From a virus, in the IMG/VR virus record IMGVR_UViG_3300030616_000003, positions 1 to 49,750 of that record: DNA of 49,750 nt; one strand, given 5' to 3'. Below, piece after piece: positions 1 to 49,750 of the stretch. Below the pieces are notes generated by a model that was not told the DNA's origin, did not search any database, and was given only the letters and a program-made list of their open reading frames with translations. The translations under genes and the position numbers were made by a program. Position 1 is the stretch's first letter, and the number at the start of each line of letters is the position of its first letter.

Positions 1-100
1 TAGAGTCTATTATTTGCCTTCTTAATACATCTGCATTACCAGTATTTTTTATAGCTTCAATTACCATATTGATATTAGTTACTAAATCTTTTTTTAACAT
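1..100 (-). CDS. Partial duplicate of the first early gene (N-terminal 33 codons)
   Basis: This is the same sequence as the start of the gene at 49157-49723, repeated because the circle was opened inside it. The ATG (98-100) has a GGAGG ribosome binding site 7 bases upstream, and the reading frame runs off the left edge. It should not be counted as a second gene. Confidence 0.9.
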   Translation of the reverse strand, partial: MLKKDLVTNINMVIEAIKNTGNADVLRRQIIDS

Positions 101-127
101 TATGCTACCTCCAAAAATTTTATTTAA
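1..127. repeat. Left copy of 127-bp terminal direct repeat
   Basis: Bases 1-127 are identical to bases 49624-49750. The length equals a common maximum assembly k-mer, so I read it as the overlap left when a circular (or circularly permuted) molecule is opened, not as a biological terminal repeat. The repeat cuts through the first early gene, whose full copy is at the right end. Confidence 0.95.
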
Positions 128-290: not shown

Positions 291-310
291 TGTAACTAAC
301 ATGTAACTAA
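291..310 (+). repeat. Two 9-bp TGTAACTAA elements, region A left flank
   Basis: TGTAACTAA occurs at 291-299 and 302-310, spaced by two bases. A further exact copy is at 514-522 and three reversed copies are at 632-658. The same element appears in region B and I did not notice it elsewhere. Confidence 0.8.
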
Positions 311-392
311 GGGTATTATACAACTATAATCCAGTAACATACATACATTTGAGATTGTCATTTTTAAAATACGTAAAAAATGTAACTTTTAA

Positions 393-418
393 TTAGTGCA
401 AGGTAAAACGCAGTGATA
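393..418 (+). repeat. 26-bp repeat copy A1 (iteron-like)
   Basis: Starts with the 12-mer TTAGTGCAAGGT, which is invariant in all five copies, followed by a looser half ending AGTGATA. It is a direct repeat of copy A2, 67 bp downstream. Confidence 0.8.
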
Positions 419-459
419 CCAGTTAAAAATGGTATTGGAAAAATATGTTTTACTTTTAG

Positions 460-485
460 TTAGTGCAAGGTATGACATAGTGATA
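460..485 (+). repeat. 26-bp repeat copy A2 (iteron-like)
   Basis: The invariant 12-mer TTAGTGCAAGGT at 460-471 is followed by a second half ending AGTGATA, as in copy A1. It faces inward towards the AT-rich core of region A. Confidence 0.8.
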
Positions 486-631
486 TAGCAGACTTTAGAA
501 GATTTTTAAATTTTGTAACTAATAAACTTCGCGCGCATATATATATATAATATTTGTATTTTTTTTTACCTATTTTATATAATACATATACGTGTATAAA
601 AAAATATAAACTGTATATATAATAGTAATGT

Positions 632-658
632 TTAGTTACATTAGTTACATTAGTTACA
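632..658 (-). repeat. Triple tandem 9-bp element TTAGTTACA, region A
   Basis: Three contiguous copies of TTAGTTACA (632-640, 641-649, 650-658). It is separated by 21 bp from repeat A3. The same arrangement, inverted and with the same 21-bp gap, is found at 20691-20750 in region B. Confidence 0.85.
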
Positions 659-665
659 TTAAGTA

Positions 666-691
666 TATTACTACGTTTGACCTTGCACTAA
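666..691 (-). repeat. 26-bp repeat copy A3 (iteron-like, inverted)
   Basis: On the minus strand it begins with TTAGTGCAAGGT (691-680) and ends AGTAATA. It faces the AT-rich core from the right, so A1/A2 and A3 point at each other. The next bases (695-710) form the palindrome AAGGTAAC/ATTACCTT. Confidence 0.8.
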
Positions 692-4375: not shown

Positions 4376-4610
4376 TTTTGTATACTTGTTTGCTTGCTTG
4401 CTTGTTTGTAAAATATTTACTTGCTTGCTTGCTTGTTTGCTTGTATAATTTGCTTGCATAGCAAGCAAGCAAATACTTTACAAAAACCTTGTACCTCTTG
4501 TTATATCTAGCTTGCAAGCACGCAAGTAAATTAACTAGCGTGCTTGTTTTTACATATTTTTACTTGCCTACACTTGCTTGCTTGCTTGTTTGCTTGCTTG
4601 CTTTTCTTCT
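4376..4610. repeat. (AAGC)n / (CTTG)n repeat region with large inverted repeats
   Basis: On the minus strand this region is rich in AAGC tetranucleotides, in blocks that also run in the opposite sense (GCTTGCTTGC). Arms near 4405-4430 and 4450-4480 are complementary (GCAAGCAAGCAAGTAAATAT with its partner ending in TTTGTAAAG), giving a long stem; a second stem lies near 4508-4550. Its 5' part encodes the ASKQ repeats at the C-terminus of the 4568-4978 gene. It lies in the leader of the 4080-4349 gene. Confidence 0.75.
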
Positions 4611-4978
4611 TGCTCGTCTTTTCTTTTGTATTCTTCTGTCACAAGATTGTTTACATATTCTGTAAACATTCTATAGAAAATTTCCATAGCTAAACTTAAA
4701 TCATCAATTTTATTATTCAATTGTTTTTTTCTTTCAACTCCATAATTTAATACTTTATCCATGAAGTCATTTATAAGATTGTGAGCGTTTAAATCTATAA
4801 AGTATATTTCATATGTATTATTTATGTCTAGCACTTTGTTAATATTTTTTTCTAGTTTGCTTTCTTTAGTTGTGTTGTTTATTATTAATCCTGATTGAAT
4901 AGTTATGTTTTCCCATACACTTGTGTGATATTTATTAGTACATCTATCAAAGCATACTATTGTTAGTTTTTGTTTCAT
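4568..4978 (-). CDS. Hypothetical protein with repetitive C-terminus, paralogue of the 5244-5567 gene
   Basis: A 136-residue protein of unknown function. The N-terminal 35 residues (strand-rich, with VWE at about residue 21) resemble those of the gene at 5244-5567, and both end in a charged helix, so I infer tandem paralogues. The C-terminus ends in EEKQASKQASKQV, which is encoded by the (AAGC)n repeat tract and may vary in length. The ATG overlaps the upstream stop as ATGA, so translation is coupled. Confidence 0.65.
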   Translation of the reverse strand: MKQKLTIVCFDRCTNKYHTSVWENITIQSGLIINNTTKESKLEKNINKVLDINNTYEIYFIDLNAHNLINDFMDKVLNYGVERKKQLNNKIDDLSLAMEIFYRMFTEYVNNLVTEEYKRKDEQEEKQASKQASKQV

Positions 4979-15208: not shown

Positions 15209-16519
15209 TTACACAACTTTGTTAACTTTATATTTGTTACCTGTAGAAGTAATAATGTTATTTTCTTTAAGTTTTTCCATAATTCTTCTATATTGTGTAT
15301 TAGTTAAGTTGAATTCTTCTATTAAATCACTCTTTTTAAAGTCTTTACCTATATAATTTTTTAGATAATCTAAAACTTTTGACATAAAGTCATAATCATC
15401 TAAAAGTGTAGTAGTTGACATAGTGTTTTTAATTGTGCTTTCTTGTGTGTTTGAGGTGCTTTCTCGCATGTTATTAAAATTTACAAGCTTTAACTTTTCT
15501 GGTTCTTGCTCTTGCTCTTGCTCTTGCTCTTGCTCTTGCTCTTGCTCTTGCTCTTGCTCTTGCTCTTGCTCTTGCTCTTGCTCTTGCTCTTGTGCTTGTT
15601 CTGGTGCTTGTACTTGCTTGTATATGCTTGCTTCTTGCTTGTATGTACTTGTATCTTGCTTGATTGTGCTTGTATCTTGTATGTTTCTGCTTGTATATTG
15701 TATGTTTCTGCTTGTATTATTATTTTCTACTTGTACTTTTAAATCTTTAATCAAATCTTTTATATCTTCTTCCTCTGCTTCTTTAGCTGTCTTACTACCT
15801 TCCAAAAATGTACAAGATACGCCAATTATTTCTATAAGAAGCCCTATTATAATACAAATAGCTTGTACAAGTGTTAAGTCTGGAATATCTTCTATTAATA
15901 CATTTAATAATGGTGCTTGTTTTATAGAAGTAGGATTAAATCCTTTTACTGTGGTATACTTGTATTGGGTTAATTTTGTTAATTCTATTTTGCTATCTTC
16001 TATTTTATTATTAGCTTCTAATATATCTTTAGAAGCTTTTTCTATTCTTTTATCATATTCTTTTCTAATCTTTGACCTATCAGTTACCCACGATTTAGGT
16101 ACACCGTTTAAATCTTCTTCTTTTTGTTTCTCTAAAGTATCCAATATTTTAACAAGCCTATTTTTTTCGTTTATATTATCTTCTATAGTTTTTTGTTGTA
16201 ATTTATACTCTTGTGTTACTTCTTTCCCTGCTTCCCTGTTGTTTACTGCTGTATTAGCGGTAAATACATAACTAAAAAATATTGAAGCAAATATTAGTAT
16301 CAATGATAAAGTTCCAATTGCCCTGTTAGTAGGTTTTAACGCCCATTGGTAGGTAAAATGTATTTTACCCATTTCTAAAATAAAACCCATCAATACATAT
16401 ATAGCTATTTCAAATTTGCTCTGGTTCTGGGATACTTGAACCATGAACAAAATAGTAAAACATAGAGAAACAAAATAAGATACTACTATAAGACTTTTTA
16501 AAACCATATTTTTAAACAT
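15209..16519 (-). CDS. Polytopic membrane protein with coiled coil, EQ repeat and C-terminal winged helix
   Basis: A 436-residue protein unlike any family I recognise. Residues 1-85 hold three hydrophobic segments, 95-200 a long charged coiled coil, 215-245 another TM segment; then come short SRNIQ/KQDTST repeats and a run of 14 EQ dipeptides, and finally 65 residues that look like a winged helix (KSDLIEEFNLTNTQYRRIMEKL). I start it at ATG 16519, with GGAGG 8 bases upstream, not at the TTG five codons earlier. It could tether DNA or a replication complex to the membrane; this is inference from topology. Confidence 0.75.
   Translation of the reverse strand: MFKNMVLKSLIVVSYFVSLCFTILFMVQVSQNQSKFEIAIYVLMGFILEMGKIHFTYQWALKPTNRAIGTLSLILIFASIFFSYVFTANTAVNNREAGKEVTQEYKLQQKTIEDNINEKNRLVKILDTLEKQKEEDLNGVPKSWVTDRSKIRKEYDKRIEKASKDILEANNKIEDSKIELTKLTQYKYTTVKGFNPTSIKQAPLLNVLIEDIPDLTLVQAICIIIGLLIEIIGVSCTFLEGSKTAKEAEEEDIKDLIKDLKVQVENNNTSRNIQYTSRNIQDTSTIKQDTSTYKQEASIYKQVQAPEQAQEQEQEQEQEQEQEQEQEQEQEQEQEQEQEPEKLKLVNFNNMRESTSNTQESTIKNTMSTTTLLDDYDFMSKVLDYLKNYIGKDFKKSDLIEEFNLTNTQYRRIMEKLKENNIITSTGNKYKVNKVV
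15505..15588 (-). repeat. Hexanucleotide microsatellite (14 units) encoding (EQ)14
   Basis: Fourteen perfect CTTGCT units (plus strand), read in frame on the minus strand as alternating GAG and CAA codons. Imperfect CTTG-rich units extend it to about 15720. A change in unit number keeps the frame and alters only linker length. Confidence 0.95.
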
Positions 16520-16548
16520 TTGTAAAACCTCCAAATTTTATTATTTAA

Positions 16549-17538: not shown

Positions 17539-20139
17539 TTACAATCCTAATGCTTCTATTATATTCTCGCAAATTCCATCATTTTTTAACATCTGTGCAT
17601 CAACTACAAAAGCCTTAGCCGACTTTGTTTTTTTAGAATCCCATTGACTTTCAAATCTAGCATTATTATACTCCACATAATACGGGCTATTTCTTAATTG
17701 AATTAAGAATTGTTCATATCCTATTATTTCAGTCTCTACATTATAGTCTTTTACAAACTTTGTAAATAAGGGAAATAGAATTTTTAAATTAAAGGCTATA
17801 TTACCACTTTTTTTAGCTATATGAGTTTTATTTATTAATTCCATATCATACATTAAATCTAATTTTTCTAGTATTTTAGGAACAATAGATAGTGTAAAAT
17901 TCTTACCCCCTTGATTAACGTCAAATTGTAATTTCTCTATCCCTTTTATTACTTCTGCTTCCTCCCCTAATATTTGAAAAATATCAAAATCATAGTCATT
18001 AAAAAACTCTACTAGTAATTTAAGACCTGTTAATACCACGGCAGTATTTTCCCTATTACGGGGCTGTAATGAATTTATCTTATTTTTGTATATTAGGAAT
18101 GACTCTTTAACTTCATTACTTTTAATTTTCAAAGATTTTTCCAGCAACAACCTTCCAAATGACTCTAAATCGTCTATATTGGCTATTAAATAATCTATTG
18201 ATTTATTTAATTTTTTTAAATCCATAGGGTCGATATACCTCATGGTATAGGAGTCTATACATCTATTCCTATCAGCCAAATCTGTAAATGAAGATTCACC
18301 TAAAAACATTAATGGTGCTACATATTTAAAATTATCACTTGATAAATTTATTTTACCCCTGCTGTATGTCAGCCCCTCAAATGCTAGTCTATTTATTTCA
18401 CTCCACATTGTTTTACGCCTGTTGTCAAACTTACTATATTTAAATTCGTCTAATAATAAAGGAATTGTATTGTTAGAACTCAATGCGCAATTAATAGGAA
18501 ATCTAGTACTAGATACACTCTCGTCACTTAAAAGCGAAAAAAACGGGCTTATTATAAAGTCTTTAATTGTGCTTTTACCCGTGCTACTCTCGGCGGATAA
18601 ATTAAAATGAGGAAATTTTATTTTATGCTCAAATAGCCTAGTTTTAAAGAAACATGCACACATATAACATAATAAAGTCGTCATTGTCTCCCTTTTGTTT
18701 ATATTCAAAATGTTTTCAATGAGTGAAGTATATTTACTGAGGCTACCTACTGCTTTATCCTCTAAAATATTATATTCTATTTTGTTTCTATTGTTATGTA
18801 GTATATACTCATTATCAACCCCGTTAGTGGACAATATCCGGCTGTTATTATCAATAAAAAAATACTCGTCGCCATCTTTGTGTATACCTGATATATCAAG
18901 ACCTTTTACAACTTTTAAATCTAATGTTACTAAGTCTTTTATATATTCTACATGTGTTTCACTCCCATAAAATGAGCCTCGACCCATTGTATATTTGTGT
19001 ATTGCTTTCTTAAAGTTTTGTTTGTTTTCAAAGTCAGTAATAGGAATAATAGTATTGTATACCGTATTACCTAATCTTATATTACACTCTATACTAAAGT
19101 CTGCTAATTCTATATATTTGATTGGTTCTATTGTAAAATTAGTAATTTTTTCTAAGGACTCCCCAGTATTATAAAAATAGCACCCTTCATCAGCTACTAC
19201 CTTGGAATCAGATAATACAATATTTTTTAACGATATATCAAACTTTTGTGCTATAAATTTTAAAGCCTCTAAACTATCTAAATTTTCTTTTAATTGTACA
19301 AATGTAAATATATCCCCGCCTTTATTGCATCCAAAGCAATAAAAACTATCTGTTAACGAATAAATATACAAACTAGGTATGTTTTCCCCATGAAAAGGGC
19401 ATATAGTTTGATTTCCCGATACTTTTATTTTATACATGTCTAAAATATCCGCTATACCAACTTTTAACTTAACTGCTTGGTAATCTTCATGTCCTTTTTT
19501 TTTCTTTTTTGTTACATCGTTAGCCGTGTCTATATCCACTAATTGTTTAAATAATTGCTCTATATATTCTTGATTTGGTTTAATTTCTTTTGCATTATTA
19601 GACCCTTTGCCAGTAATAGTCAAAAATCTATTTTTATAATATATTTCTATTGCATCCTTTGGTATATTATTTTTATTTTCTTTTATTTTTTCAACTATTT
19701 CATTAGAAAAATATTTAAACATTTGCGGATATTTACCCAGTTTAAAATTTACTTGTGTTTTATCTTTATGCTTTAATACTCTTTGTTTCTTTAAGAAGAT
19801 ATGTACGCCCGTGCCACTTAAAGACCTTTCTATATAGGCTTCTTTATCTAACTTCTCTATTATATCTTTAGCCCAGTCTTTTACTTTACCTCTCTCTAAG
19901 TCTAAGCAATTATCTAAATCAATACCTATATAATCGCTATTTAACGCAAAGGATAGACCGTACCCATCCAACATTCTAACAGCTTCTACAGCTTCATCAA
20001 AACTAACCCATGTATTGGGGTCGTTAGATTTAGCCATTTTACCCCCGTCTATTTGGTATGGAATTTTATTTTTATGTAATACCCACTGATTCTTTTCTTT
20101 TAATTCTTCTGGTATATTACAAATGTTAATTTGACCCAT
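17539..20139 (-). CDS. Primase-polymerase / CHC2 zinc finger / helicase fusion
   Basis: An 866-residue replication initiator-like protein. Residues 1-220 look like an archaeo-eukaryotic primase-polymerase (GIDLDNC at 72-78, acidic metal site; SGTGVHIF at 108-115). Residues 247-280 form a DnaG-type CHC2 zinc finger (CPFHGEN...CFGC), which normally accompanies TOPRIM primases. The C-terminal half is a P-loop ATPase, Walker A SAESSTGKST (515-524) and Walker B LLLDE (561-565), as in phage/plasmid replication helicases. It could prime, load and unwind at regions A and B. The ATG has AAGGAGGAAATTTA upstream, and the promoter lies 50-80 bp before the start. Confidence 0.85.
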   Translation of the reverse strand: MGQINICNIPEELKEKNQWVLHKNKIPYQIDGGKMAKSNDPNTWVSFDEAVEAVRMLDGYGLSFALNSDYIGIDLDNCLDLERGKVKDWAKDIIEKLDKEAYIERSLSGTGVHIFLKKQRVLKHKDKTQVNFKLGKYPQMFKYFSNEIVEKIKENKNNIPKDAIEIYYKNRFLTITGKGSNNAKEIKPNQEYIEQLFKQLVDIDTANDVTKKKKKGHEDYQAVKLKVGIADILDMYKIKVSGNQTICPFHGENIPSLYIYSLTDSFYCFGCNKGGDIFTFVQLKENLDSLEALKFIAQKFDISLKNIVLSDSKVVADEGCYFYNTGESLEKITNFTIEPIKYIELADFSIECNIRLGNTVYNTIIPITDFENKQNFKKAIHKYTMGRGSFYGSETHVEYIKDLVTLDLKVVKGLDISGIHKDGDEYFFIDNNSRILSTNGVDNEYILHNNRNKIEYNILEDKAVGSLSKYTSLIENILNINKRETMTTLLCYMCACFFKTRLFEHKIKFPHFNLSAESSTGKSTIKDFIISPFFSLLSDESVSSTRFPINCALSSNNTIPLLLDEFKYSKFDNRRKTMWSEINRLAFEGLTYSRGKINLSSDNFKYVAPLMFLGESSFTDLADRNRCIDSYTMRYIDPMDLKKLNKSIDYLIANIDDLESFGRLLLEKSLKIKSNEVKESFLIYKNKINSLQPRNRENTAVVLTGLKLLVEFFNDYDFDIFQILGEEAEVIKGIEKLQFDVNQGGKNFTLSIVPKILEKLDLMYDMELINKTHIAKKSGNIAFNLKILFPLFTKFVKDYNVETEIIGYEQFLIQLRNSPYYVEYNNARFESQWDSKKTKSAKAFVVDAQMLKNDGICENIIEALGL

Positions 20140-20362: not shown

Positions 20363-20473
20363 ATGCGGGGAAAAACTCCACTTAATAAAGATGTTTATAT
20401 GACTATGCCAACAGTTAAGCCATCGGGGAATGTAGACATACACGCCTTTGAAGGTACGAAAAATAAAATATAA
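20363..20473 (+). other. Possible small plus-strand ORF or RNA (36 codons)
   Basis: An ATG-to-TAA frame of 36 codons in a stretch that is clearly less AT-rich than its surroundings and ends 8 bases before a bidirectional terminator. There is no ribosome binding site before the ATG and no convincing promoter. The frame is open upstream to 20312. Short stems (GGGG-AAAAA-CTCC; CCTTTGAAGG) are possible. It may be a small RNA, a degraded gene, or a peptide gene; I cannot decide. Confidence 0.25.
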
Positions 20474-20480
20474 AACAAAA

Positions 20481-20508
20481 AGAAAAGCCCTAAAAATAGG
20501 GCTTTTCT
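20481..20508. terminator. Bidirectional terminator in region B
   Basis: 12-bp stem AGAAAAGCCCTA/TAGGGCTTTTCT (20481-20492 with 20497-20508). On the minus strand it runs into TTTTTGTTTTA; on the plus strand the inner GCCCTA/TAGGGC stem is followed by TTTTCT. It shields the replication promoter from transcripts crossing region B. Confidence 0.8.
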
Positions 20509-20659: not shown

Positions 20660-20668
20660 TTAGTTACA
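20660..20668 (-). repeat. 9-bp TTAGTTACA element, region B left flank
   Basis: Single exact copy of the 9-bp element, upstream of repeat B1. Further copies in region B are at 20724-20741 (two, reversed), 20889-20897 and 20964-20972. Confidence 0.75.
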
Positions 20669-20690
20669 AGTTACCTTATGTTACCTTTAA

Positions 20691-20716
20691 TTAGTGCAAG
20701 GTTAAAGCCAGTAATA
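20691..20716 (+). repeat. 26-bp repeat copy B1 (iteron-like)
   Basis: Begins with the invariant 12-mer TTAGTGCAAGGT (20691-20702), second half ending AGTAATA. It points inward to the AT-rich core. With the following 9-bp triplet it forms a 60-bp module that matches region A (691-632, inverted) at 53 of 60 positions. Confidence 0.85.
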
Positions 20717-20723
20717 TGCTCAA

Positions 20724-20750
20724 TGTAACTAATGTAACTAATATAACTAA
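20724..20750 (+). repeat. Triple tandem 9-bp element, region B
   Basis: TGTAACTAA, TGTAACTAA and the variant TATAACTAA, contiguous, 21 bp after the 12-mer of repeat B1. The inverted counterpart in region A is at 632-658 with the same 21-bp gap. Confidence 0.85.
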
Positions 20751-20882
20751 TATATACTATTACGTATATATATATATTATTATTATTATATTGTTATGTA
20801 TCACATATATATATATATATATATTATATAACAATAAAAAAGTTTACATAGTATTATATATATATGGTGTGTAAAAATATTA

Positions 20883-20972
20883 GGTAACTTAGTTACAAAA
20901 CCCCGTAAGTACTTATACTAGTAAGTTATACCTTGCACTAACTTGGGTATTTTTCAAGGTAACTTAGTTACA
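20883..20972. repeat. 15-bp direct repeats with palindromic core, region B right flank
   Basis: GGTAACTTAGTTACA occurs at 20883-20897 and 20958-20972. Each copy contains the palindrome GTAACTTAGTTAC. The two copies bracket repeat B2, so the right side of region B is itself symmetric. Confidence 0.8.
20916..20941 (-). repeat. 26-bp repeat copy B2 (iteron-like, inverted)
   Basis: On the minus strand it begins with TTAGTGCAAGGT (20941-20930); its second half is the most diverged of the five copies. It faces the AT-rich core (about 20750-20880) from the right, opposite B1. Confidence 0.8.
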
Positions 20973-21102: not shown

Positions 21103-21375
21103 TTATATATCTTTTAAAGCGTTATTAGTTATAGTATTTTTAACCGTGTCCATGCTTGGACAAAAAACATCTTTAACGGGCATTTTAAGAATATTAGATA
21201 AAATAATTGCTTGCTCTGGTGTCATAGCAATATAACCAGTTATACGTCTATTAGTATTAACTGTATTTAACCCCCATGCTTTTGCTATTTCCTTTCTCTC
21301 TATATTTCTTTCTTTTAGTAAAATAGATATATATTTGGCATTAAAGTTATAATTACCGTTTATATTATTTGACAT
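21103..21375 (-). CDS. Small HTH transcriptional regulator (candidate repressor)
   Basis: A 90-residue protein: residues 12-65 form a Cro/C1-type or XRE-like helix-turn-helix (ILLKERNIERKEIAKAWGL, then RRITGYIAMTPEQAIILS and the SNILKMPVKDVF closing helix). It lacks a separate oligomerisation or protease-cleavage domain, so it is a small repressor or Cro-like protein. A palindrome (21407-21427) lies between its promoter and start, which suggests autoregulation. It is divergent from the only plus-strand gene. The ATG has AGGGGAGT upstream. It is the best lysogeny regulator candidate in the genome. Confidence 0.8.
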   Translation of the reverse strand: MSNNINGNYNFNAKYISILLKERNIERKEIAKAWGLNTVNTNRRITGYIAMTPEQAIILSNILKMPVKDVFCPSMDTVKNTITNNALKDI

Positions 21376-22200: not shown

Positions 22201-23337
22201 TTATACTCCGCTATTATCAAAAATTGTCCAGCTTTTTGTTGTCACAAGATAGCTTCTTGCTGTTTCGGCAATTCCTCCACTTGTGTAATTTGCAGTACAC
22301 CTAAAAGTTAATCCAGTTTTTACATTTTGCTCATTTGCCCATTCCAACAACAAATTATCGTAATTCGCTATTGACAAATTTGTGCTTTCTAATATGTAAT
22401 CAATATTTGTTGTAGCTTCTATGTTGAAGCTAATAGCTTGGTTAAAATCAAATGCATCTTGAAACATAGCATACATATTTGTTACTTTAGAAGTATTAAA
22501 ACAACTAACAGACTGATTAAAATTCGTGCATTCTCTGAACATAAAAGCTGTAGTTGTTACTTTAGAAGTATCTAAGCAAATAGGTTGATTGAAATTAGTA
22601 CACTTATAAAACATAGCATACATAATTGTAACTTTATGAGTGTTAAAATTAATAGGTTTGTTGAAATTTGAACATGCATAAAACATACTATTCATGTTCA
22701 CTACATTAGATGTGTTAAAATTAACATTTTGGTTGAAATTTGAACATAAATAAAACATATAAGACATATTTTCTACATTTGATGTATCAAAATTAATTGC
22801 TTGATTAAAATTCGTACATCCGTAAAACATGTAATCCATATTTTCTATATTTAATGTATTTAAATTCCCAATTAATGTTAAATTTGAACAACCTCTAAAC
22901 ATCTCAGACATATTTACTACATTTGATGTATCTAAATTGTTTATGCTAGTTAGATTCGTACACCCATAAAATTTTCCTGCTGAATTACCAACATTGAGTA
23001 TTCCTCCGTTATCTATGCTTAATAATTTAAGTTTATCACCAGAATTATTAAAAACAAATCCTTCAATTGTGCCTTTTATTTTTATTTCATAAGTTCCAAT
23101 ACTACTATATGTATGTGTAACTTCTGCTTGATTGTATGCTGTTATAGTATCTTTTTGTCCATCTCCCCAGTCAACAACAAAGTTATATGTACCTCCTGAT
23201 TCAAGAGGTAATTTAACTTGATGGTCTGTGCTACTTCCTGTGCTTGTGTTGTCTGTTTTCCATGTACTTATAAATACATTTGAGTTAATTATATTTACTC
23301 TTTTTACAATACTATTACCTACCCCTAATTGTGGCAT
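22201..23337 (-). CDS. DUF285/BspA-like repeat surface protein
   Basis: A 378-residue protein. Residues 1-110 hold a beta-sandwich, PKD-like start (FVVDWGDGQKDTITAY...HTYSSIGTYEIKIKG), then residues 125-310 carry at least seven DUF285 units of 23-24 residues with the core MxxMFYxCxNFNQxINFNTSxV. Such repeats are common in surface proteins of Mollicutes and gut Firmicutes. In the late block between lysis and tail genes it is a candidate virion adhesin or decoration. No signal peptide. The ATG has AGGGGTGATATA upstream. Repeat number may vary by recombination. Confidence 0.85.
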   Translation of the reverse strand: MPQLGVGNSIVKRVNIINSNVFISTWKTDNTSTGSSTDHQVKLPLESGGTYNFVVDWGDGQKDTITAYNQAEVTHTYSSIGTYEIKIKGTIEGFVFNNSGDKLKLLSIDNGGILNVGNSAGKFYGCTNLTSINNLDTSNVVNMSEMFRGCSNLTLIGNLNTLNIENMDYMFYGCTNFNQAINFDTSNVENMSYMFYLCSNFNQNVNFNTSNVVNMNSMFYACSNFNKPINFNTHKVTIMYAMFYKCTNFNQPICLDTSKVTTTAFMFRECTNFNQSVSCFNTSKVTNMYAMFQDAFDFNQAISFNIEATTNIDYILESTNLSIANYDNLLLEWANEQNVKTGLTFRCTANYTSGGIAETARSYLVTTKSWTIFDNSGV

Positions 23338-49156: not shown

Positions 49157-49723
49157 TTAATTATTGTTGTTTGCTATTTCTATTAGTTGGCGGGTATATT
49201 TTTTTATTATTCTACGACCAACTTTTAACTGTTTAGTCGTAAGTCTGCCGTATTTTAGTATACCTTCGGCAAAACTTGTCATAATTTCAACATCTGCACC
49301 ATTAAACCCTACGCCATTATTTGAGATTGTAACCCCGGCGCACTTTTCTTCTGCTGTCTGTAAGTTATATATAGCCAATATAGCCCTTAAAACCGCCTTA
49401 TCATTTGAATCTAATAACTCTACCATTGTTTCTTTGCACCATACTACTTTATGTTTAATTTTATAATATTTAGCAAACTTTTTTAATTCGGCATATACTG
49501 GAATTAATTCGCATTTCTTTGCTTTCTTGTCTAACTCGATATTATATAATTCATTGCCTTTGAATGAAAACCATACATGTTTTTCGGTATTTATAAAATC
49601 AATATTATGCTTAAACTCCCTATTAGAGTCTATTATTTGCCTTCTTAATACATCTGCATTACCAGTATTTTTTATAGCTTCAATTACCATATTGATATTA
49701 GTTACTAAATCTTTTTTTAACAT
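49157..49723 (-). CDS. First early gene, hypothetical protein (188 aa)
   Basis: No family recognised. Mostly helical with a central strand region (HVWFSFKGNELYNIELD); the C-terminal third (LTTKQLKVGRRIIKKYTRQLIEIA) is basic and helical. ATG with GGAGG 7 bases upstream, about 55 bases behind the class I promoter located (in circle terms) at 154-182. As the first gene behind a strong promoter next to region A, it is probably one of the first expressed. Its 5' part is duplicated at the window start. Confidence 0.75.
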   Translation of the reverse strand: MLKKDLVTNINMVIEAIKNTGNADVLRRQIIDSNREFKHNIDFINTEKHVWFSFKGNELYNIELDKKAKKCELIPVYAELKKFAKYYKIKHKVVWCKETMVELLDSNDKAVLRAILAIYNLQTAEEKCAGVTISNNGVGFNGADVEIMTSFAEGILKYGRLTTKQLKVGRRIIKKYTRQLIEIANNNN

Positions 49724-49750
49724 TATGCTACCTCCAAAAATTTTATTTAA
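49624..49750. repeat. Right copy of 127-bp terminal direct repeat
   Basis: Exact copy of bases 1-127. It holds the start codon, ribosome binding site and first 33 codons of the gene ending at 49157. Joining the two copies gives a 49,623-bp circle. Confidence 0.95.

Follow-up and report, generated by a model that had tools for sequence, protein, structure and literature searches.

The satellite phage P4 carries two separate iteron clusters in one genome, ori and crr, which are bound by a primase-helicase; both the sequence and the arrangement of the P4 boxes differ from those described below. Bacillus phage SPP1 possesses two origins, oriL and oriR, with repeats and an AT-rich element (PMC6316719). 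In the SaPI and SCC elements, initiator helicases bind repeats located beside their own genes, SaPI Rep and Cch2 contacting their origins through C-terminal domains (PMC7581432). The kind of origin discussed here is already known. In the literature searched, no description was found of the paired convergent layout, of the additional 27-bp element or of a broad association between TGTAACY arrays and phage primase-helicases, and a search for the box itself at phage origins returned nothing relevant.

The window, that is the whole stretch of DNA analysed, is the low-GC virus record IMGVR_UViG_3300030616_000003 of 49,750 bases. A 127-bp direct terminal repeat at the contig ends (window 1-127 and 49624-49750) indicates that the genome is a circle of 49,623 bp; the gene at 49157-49723 runs across these ends, part of it being repeated at the contig start. 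Two regions, A (~290-710) and B (~20660-20972), divide the circle into two arcs, and nearly all large genes of both arcs are carried by the minus strand; the strand skew between the arcs is not decisive, with p = 0.009 for the AT contrast and p = 0.12 for the GC contrast. The replication genes (FtsK-like ATPase, family A DNA polymerase, Sak4-like ATPase, helicase-like protein and primase) lie within 0.8-20.1 kb, and the head genes are akin to those of Bacillus phage BSP7 and Weizmannia phage Youna2. Repeats of other kinds also occur: a perfect 6-bp tandem repeat of 14.8 copies (window 15504-15592, inside gene 15209-16534) encodes an EQ repeat, further CTTG-type repeats are found at 4383-4449 and 4573-4625, and a degenerate 72-bp repeat (window 22579-22938, gene 22201-23337) yields repeated 'MxxMFxxCxNFNQ' segments.

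Both A and B are non-coding. A is flanked by the end of the replication gene block and the gene 49157-49723, and B sits between an HTH gene (21103-21375) and a primase-helicase gene. Each region is an imperfect dyad of TTAGTGCAAGGT 12-mers and TGTAACTAA 9-mers, with boxes that mainly point inward, on the plus strand to the left of an AT-rich core and on the minus strand to its right. The features are as follows.

Region A, 291-299 and 302-310, plus strand: two outer TGTAACTAA boxes (exact 9-mer sites)
Region A, 381-387, plus strand: TGTAACT box
Region A, 393-404 and 412-419, plus strand: 27-bp unit of 12-mer TTAGTGCAAGGT, N7 and AGTGATAC
Region A, 460-486, plus strand: second 27-bp unit, 12-mer (460-471), N7 and AGTGATAT
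Region A, 514-522, plus strand: TGTAACTAA box at the left edge of the AT core (exact 9-mer site)
Region A, 536-619, no strand: AT-rich core, candidate unwinding element (stability minimum)
Region A, 632-691, minus strand: A copy of the 60-bp module, with three TTAGTTACA 9-mers (632-658), a 21-bp gap and the 12-mer (680-691)
Primase-helicase gene, 17539-20139, minus strand: NrS-1-like primase-polymerase N-terminus, CHC2 zinc domain and C-terminal ATPase
Region B, 20660-20687, minus strand: outer boxes TTAGTTACA, AGTTACC and ATGTTACCTT
Region B, 20691-20750, plus strand: B copy of the 60-bp module, with the 12-mer (20691-20702), N7, AGTAATAT (20710-20717) and three 9-mers (20724-20750)
Region B, 20751-20830, no strand: AT-rich core, candidate unwinding element (stability minimum)
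Region B, 20883-20889, plus strand, and 20889-20897, minus strand: overlapping boxes of the right half, GGTAACT and TTAGTTACA respectively
Region B, 20930-20941, minus strand: right-hand 12-mer facing the AT core
Region B, 20958-20972, minus strand: outer right boxes GGTAACT and TTAGTTACA

The 12-mer occurs five times in the window (393+, 460+, 680-, 20691+ and 20930-), always within A or B, against 0.2 occurrences expected by chance with one mismatch allowed. Four of the five form a 27-bp unit, TTAGTGCAAGGT-N7-AGTRATAY, in which the spacing is fixed and the N7 variable; at the fifth (20930), the 12-mer is kept and the second part of the unit has diverged. All 11 exact TTAGTTACA/TGTAACTAA sites of the window are likewise confined to A or B (1.4 expected). 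As for the cores, no 80-bp stretch of the whole genome is less stable than 20751-20830 in B, and 540-619 in A ranks as the fourth least stable.

The 60-bp module constitutes one half of this larger structure in each region. The 53 of 60 positions that the first-pass annotation had counted as identical between 20691-20750 and the reverse complement of 632-691 were confirmed exactly, while the next best place for the 60-mer within the window reaches 36/60, the best 60-mer match in 60 Markov surrogate genomes is 38/60, and swapping region A for Markov surrogates gives best 60-base matches to B of 42 or fewer. Beyond the 12-mer (12/12), the similarity takes in both the gap (15/21, binomial p about 1e-3) and the 27-bp triplet of 9-mers (26/27), whose third member reads TATAACTAA in B, and it extends upstream of the 60-mer through ATGTTACCTT (20678-20687). 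The same alignment bears out that the spacing is identical, the first 9-mer starting exactly 21 bp from the 12-mer in both copies, and that the triplet is kept more strictly than the bases of the gap. The description of the copies as inverted holds for the best-matching halves and is limited to them, each region being itself an imperfect dyad; because of this dyad nature, no inversion has to be invoked for the right half of A to match the left half of B. Taken by itself, the similarity between A and B, the shared spacing included, could reflect duplication.

Altogether, the anatomy of A and B points to two copies of an iteron-type DNA replication origin with inward boxes around a meltable AT core, a reading that can be given a probability of about 0.75. 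As in origins of this type, a cluster of short repeats lies beside an unstable AT-rich core in non-coding DNA, a primase-helicase gene is close by (B), and a like type of box is found at comparable places in other phages. The protein-bound architecture proposed in the first-pass annotation is supported by the fixed 21-bp and N7 spacings, by dyads built around highly unstable DNA, and by the presence of the 9-mer core beside the primase-helicase genes of other phages. From this layout, we infer protein binding, initiation and a division of labour between A and B: an initiator would bind the inward-pointing TGTAACTAA boxes on either side of the AT-rich core, melt this core and load the replicative helicase. 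The phage's own primase-helicase would be the leading candidate to act at the origins, and the 27-bp unit would be bound as a second site, probably by an accessory initiator or a regulator; the 12-mer may be bound by a protein other than the primase-helicase.

B is found upstream of the primase gene, at a distance of 0.5 kb. A, which does not adjoin this gene, lies at the opposite end of the block of replication genes. The primase chain combines two kinds of primase module, an NrS-1-like primase-polymerase, whose likeness rests on PDB matches, and a DnaG-type CHC2 zinc domain, together with the ATPase. No DNA-binding domain was identified in this protein, and a structure model of its C-terminus (mean pLDDT 32) was discarded. 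Among phages with similar arrays, the primases at loci L028 and L104 have the same N-terminal domain and their boxes also face mainly inward; the final part of the L028 primase matches winged-helix models. When the window primase was compared by profile with the helicases at L061/L129/L072 and L145/L070/L068, no significant match emerged beyond shared primase parts, and no relatives of the window primase or DNA polymerase were found in IMG/VR. The interval separating B from the primase gene also holds a 36-codon reading frame on the plus strand (MRGKTPLNKDVYMTMPTVKPSGNVDIHAFEGTKNKI) followed by a strong hairpin (window 20363-20508), the RNA of which folds better than shuffles (z -4.7).

Other phages in IMG/VR were searched both with TGTAACTAATGTAACTAAT and with three TGTAACT separated by gaps of at most 15, the same motif read backwards serving as the control. 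Among the matches listed, both orientations are present in 37 of 53 non-coding TGTAACT arrays against 3 of 45 reversed-motif loci, and within these matches the contrast holds after collapsing a closely related marine group (p about 1e-6). The nearest large gene, again among the matches listed, is a primase or helicase at 11 of 15 independent loci (L028, L104, L061, L129, L072, L145, the L051/L065/L095 group, L068, L070, L091 and the L008 group, the remainder being L067, L097, L103 and L045) against 0 of 20 control loci (Fisher p 3e-6), in a count where loci were grouped by inspection and which omits some arrays that have no large gene closer than 1.5 kb. Among 20 records carrying TGTAACY arrays, the pairs are confined to one place, the exceptions being G019 (one stray pair) and G017 (several places within 3 kb); the present phage, by contrast, has two well-formed clusters 20 kb apart. 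A marine phage group (L008, L011-L013, L022, L027, L037 and similar loci) packs eight or nine TGTAACT boxes into about 166 bp immediately after a primase-helicase gene of the Toprim/AAA_25 type, which makes this array a compact candidate origin. L045, a record of 66,935 bases, has fourteen boxes within about 500 bp and more pairs over 3 kb, with no recognised primase neighbour.

The helicases that adjoin TGTAACY arrays are of unlike types: prim-pol/D5, CHC2 plus a separate ATPase, and Toprim plus AAA_25. It is conceivable, if doubtful, that TGTAACY is a shared origin box of phages with unlike replicative helicases, doubled here to bracket the replication gene block; if true, this would imply a common recognition factor or repeated convergence. 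A query with a single 7-mer picks whichever origins contain that 7-mer, and the recurrence of the box across several helicase families may be selection by query. The inference that TGTAACT arrays are origins is independent of this sharing. The association also raises the question as to why unlike primase-helicases adjoin the same box.

The 12-mer was not found at the TGTAACT array loci of other phages, and the composite of 12-mer plus 9-mer had no match in IMG/VR; one match in 85,000 genomes fell inside a glycosidase-like gene and was judged to be due to chance. Capsid relatives share the head genes and not the arrays, the TGTAACY pair being absent from 30 of 32 records and present once in each of the other two. 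Comparison of region B with plasmids gave no match, the module of region A found only weak matches among phages, and Rfam returned nothing at threshold.

Three other explanations were weighed. A and B would be operator/promoter regions if a phage repressor, such as the HTH protein encoded beside B, controlled two leftward operons, and their position upstream of minus-strand genes, within long intergenic stretches, would suit such a role; this is nevertheless unlikely, as promoter-like sites are no commoner than in shuffles, a terminator-like hairpin separates B from the primase gene, an operator can do without an extreme AT core, and the genes next to such arrays elsewhere in general encode primase-helicases and not repressors. 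The repeat arrays, together with the FtsK/SpoIIIE-like gene that adjoins A, could also recall centromere-like partition or segregation sites of a plasmid-like prophage, possibly tied to this FtsK-like ATPase. Such a function is very improbable: the proteins examined, which represent a part of all genes, brought neither ParA/ParB nor TubZ/TubR to notice, and neither AT cores nor neighbouring primase genes are expected of partition sites. Lastly, the suggestion that the inverted copies act as a recombination switch flipping one arc of the genome finds the best-matching halves indeed inverted within the circle but is scarcely credible, given that perfect identity spans only about 20 bp, that the inverted match is accounted for by each region being a dyad, and that the large genes of both arcs share the minus strand.

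Read as iteron-type origins, A and B offer a sequence signature by which to find replication origins in the genomes of uncultured phages, and they can be set against the systems introduced above. With SaPI Rep and SCCmec Cch2, they share short repeats beside the gene of a binding helicase and AT-rich DNA to melt (PMC7581432). The SaPI and SCCmec origins are downstream of the helicase gene and single in each element, whereas here B is upstream of the primase gene and two regions are present; the C-terminal ATPase of the window protein may belong to a family other than that of Rep and Cch2. With SPP1, the likeness lies in paired origins of similar layout whose direct repeats adjoin an AT-rich unwinding element; the SPP1 pair is separated by 12-13 kb in the circularised genome, and one of the two is tied to replication genes (PMC6316719, PMC3485210). 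A and B show the same doubling of one organisation within a single genome, a likeness drawn at the level of layout, to which the 12-mer element and the dyad arrangement at both sites are additions. While SPP1 uses the initiator gp38, the loader gp39 and the DnaB-type helicase gp40, a primase-helicase fusion adjoins B; among the window genes scanned with Pfam/PHROGs, this protein was found instead of a gp38-like one. Two origins 20 kb apart would resemble the SPP1 pair, one starting theta replication and the other possibly acting as a fork barrier that triggers concatemer synthesis, and the present phage would provide a second case of twin origins in which to test the idea, drawn from SPP1, that at a second origin the fork is stalled and the mode of replication switched.
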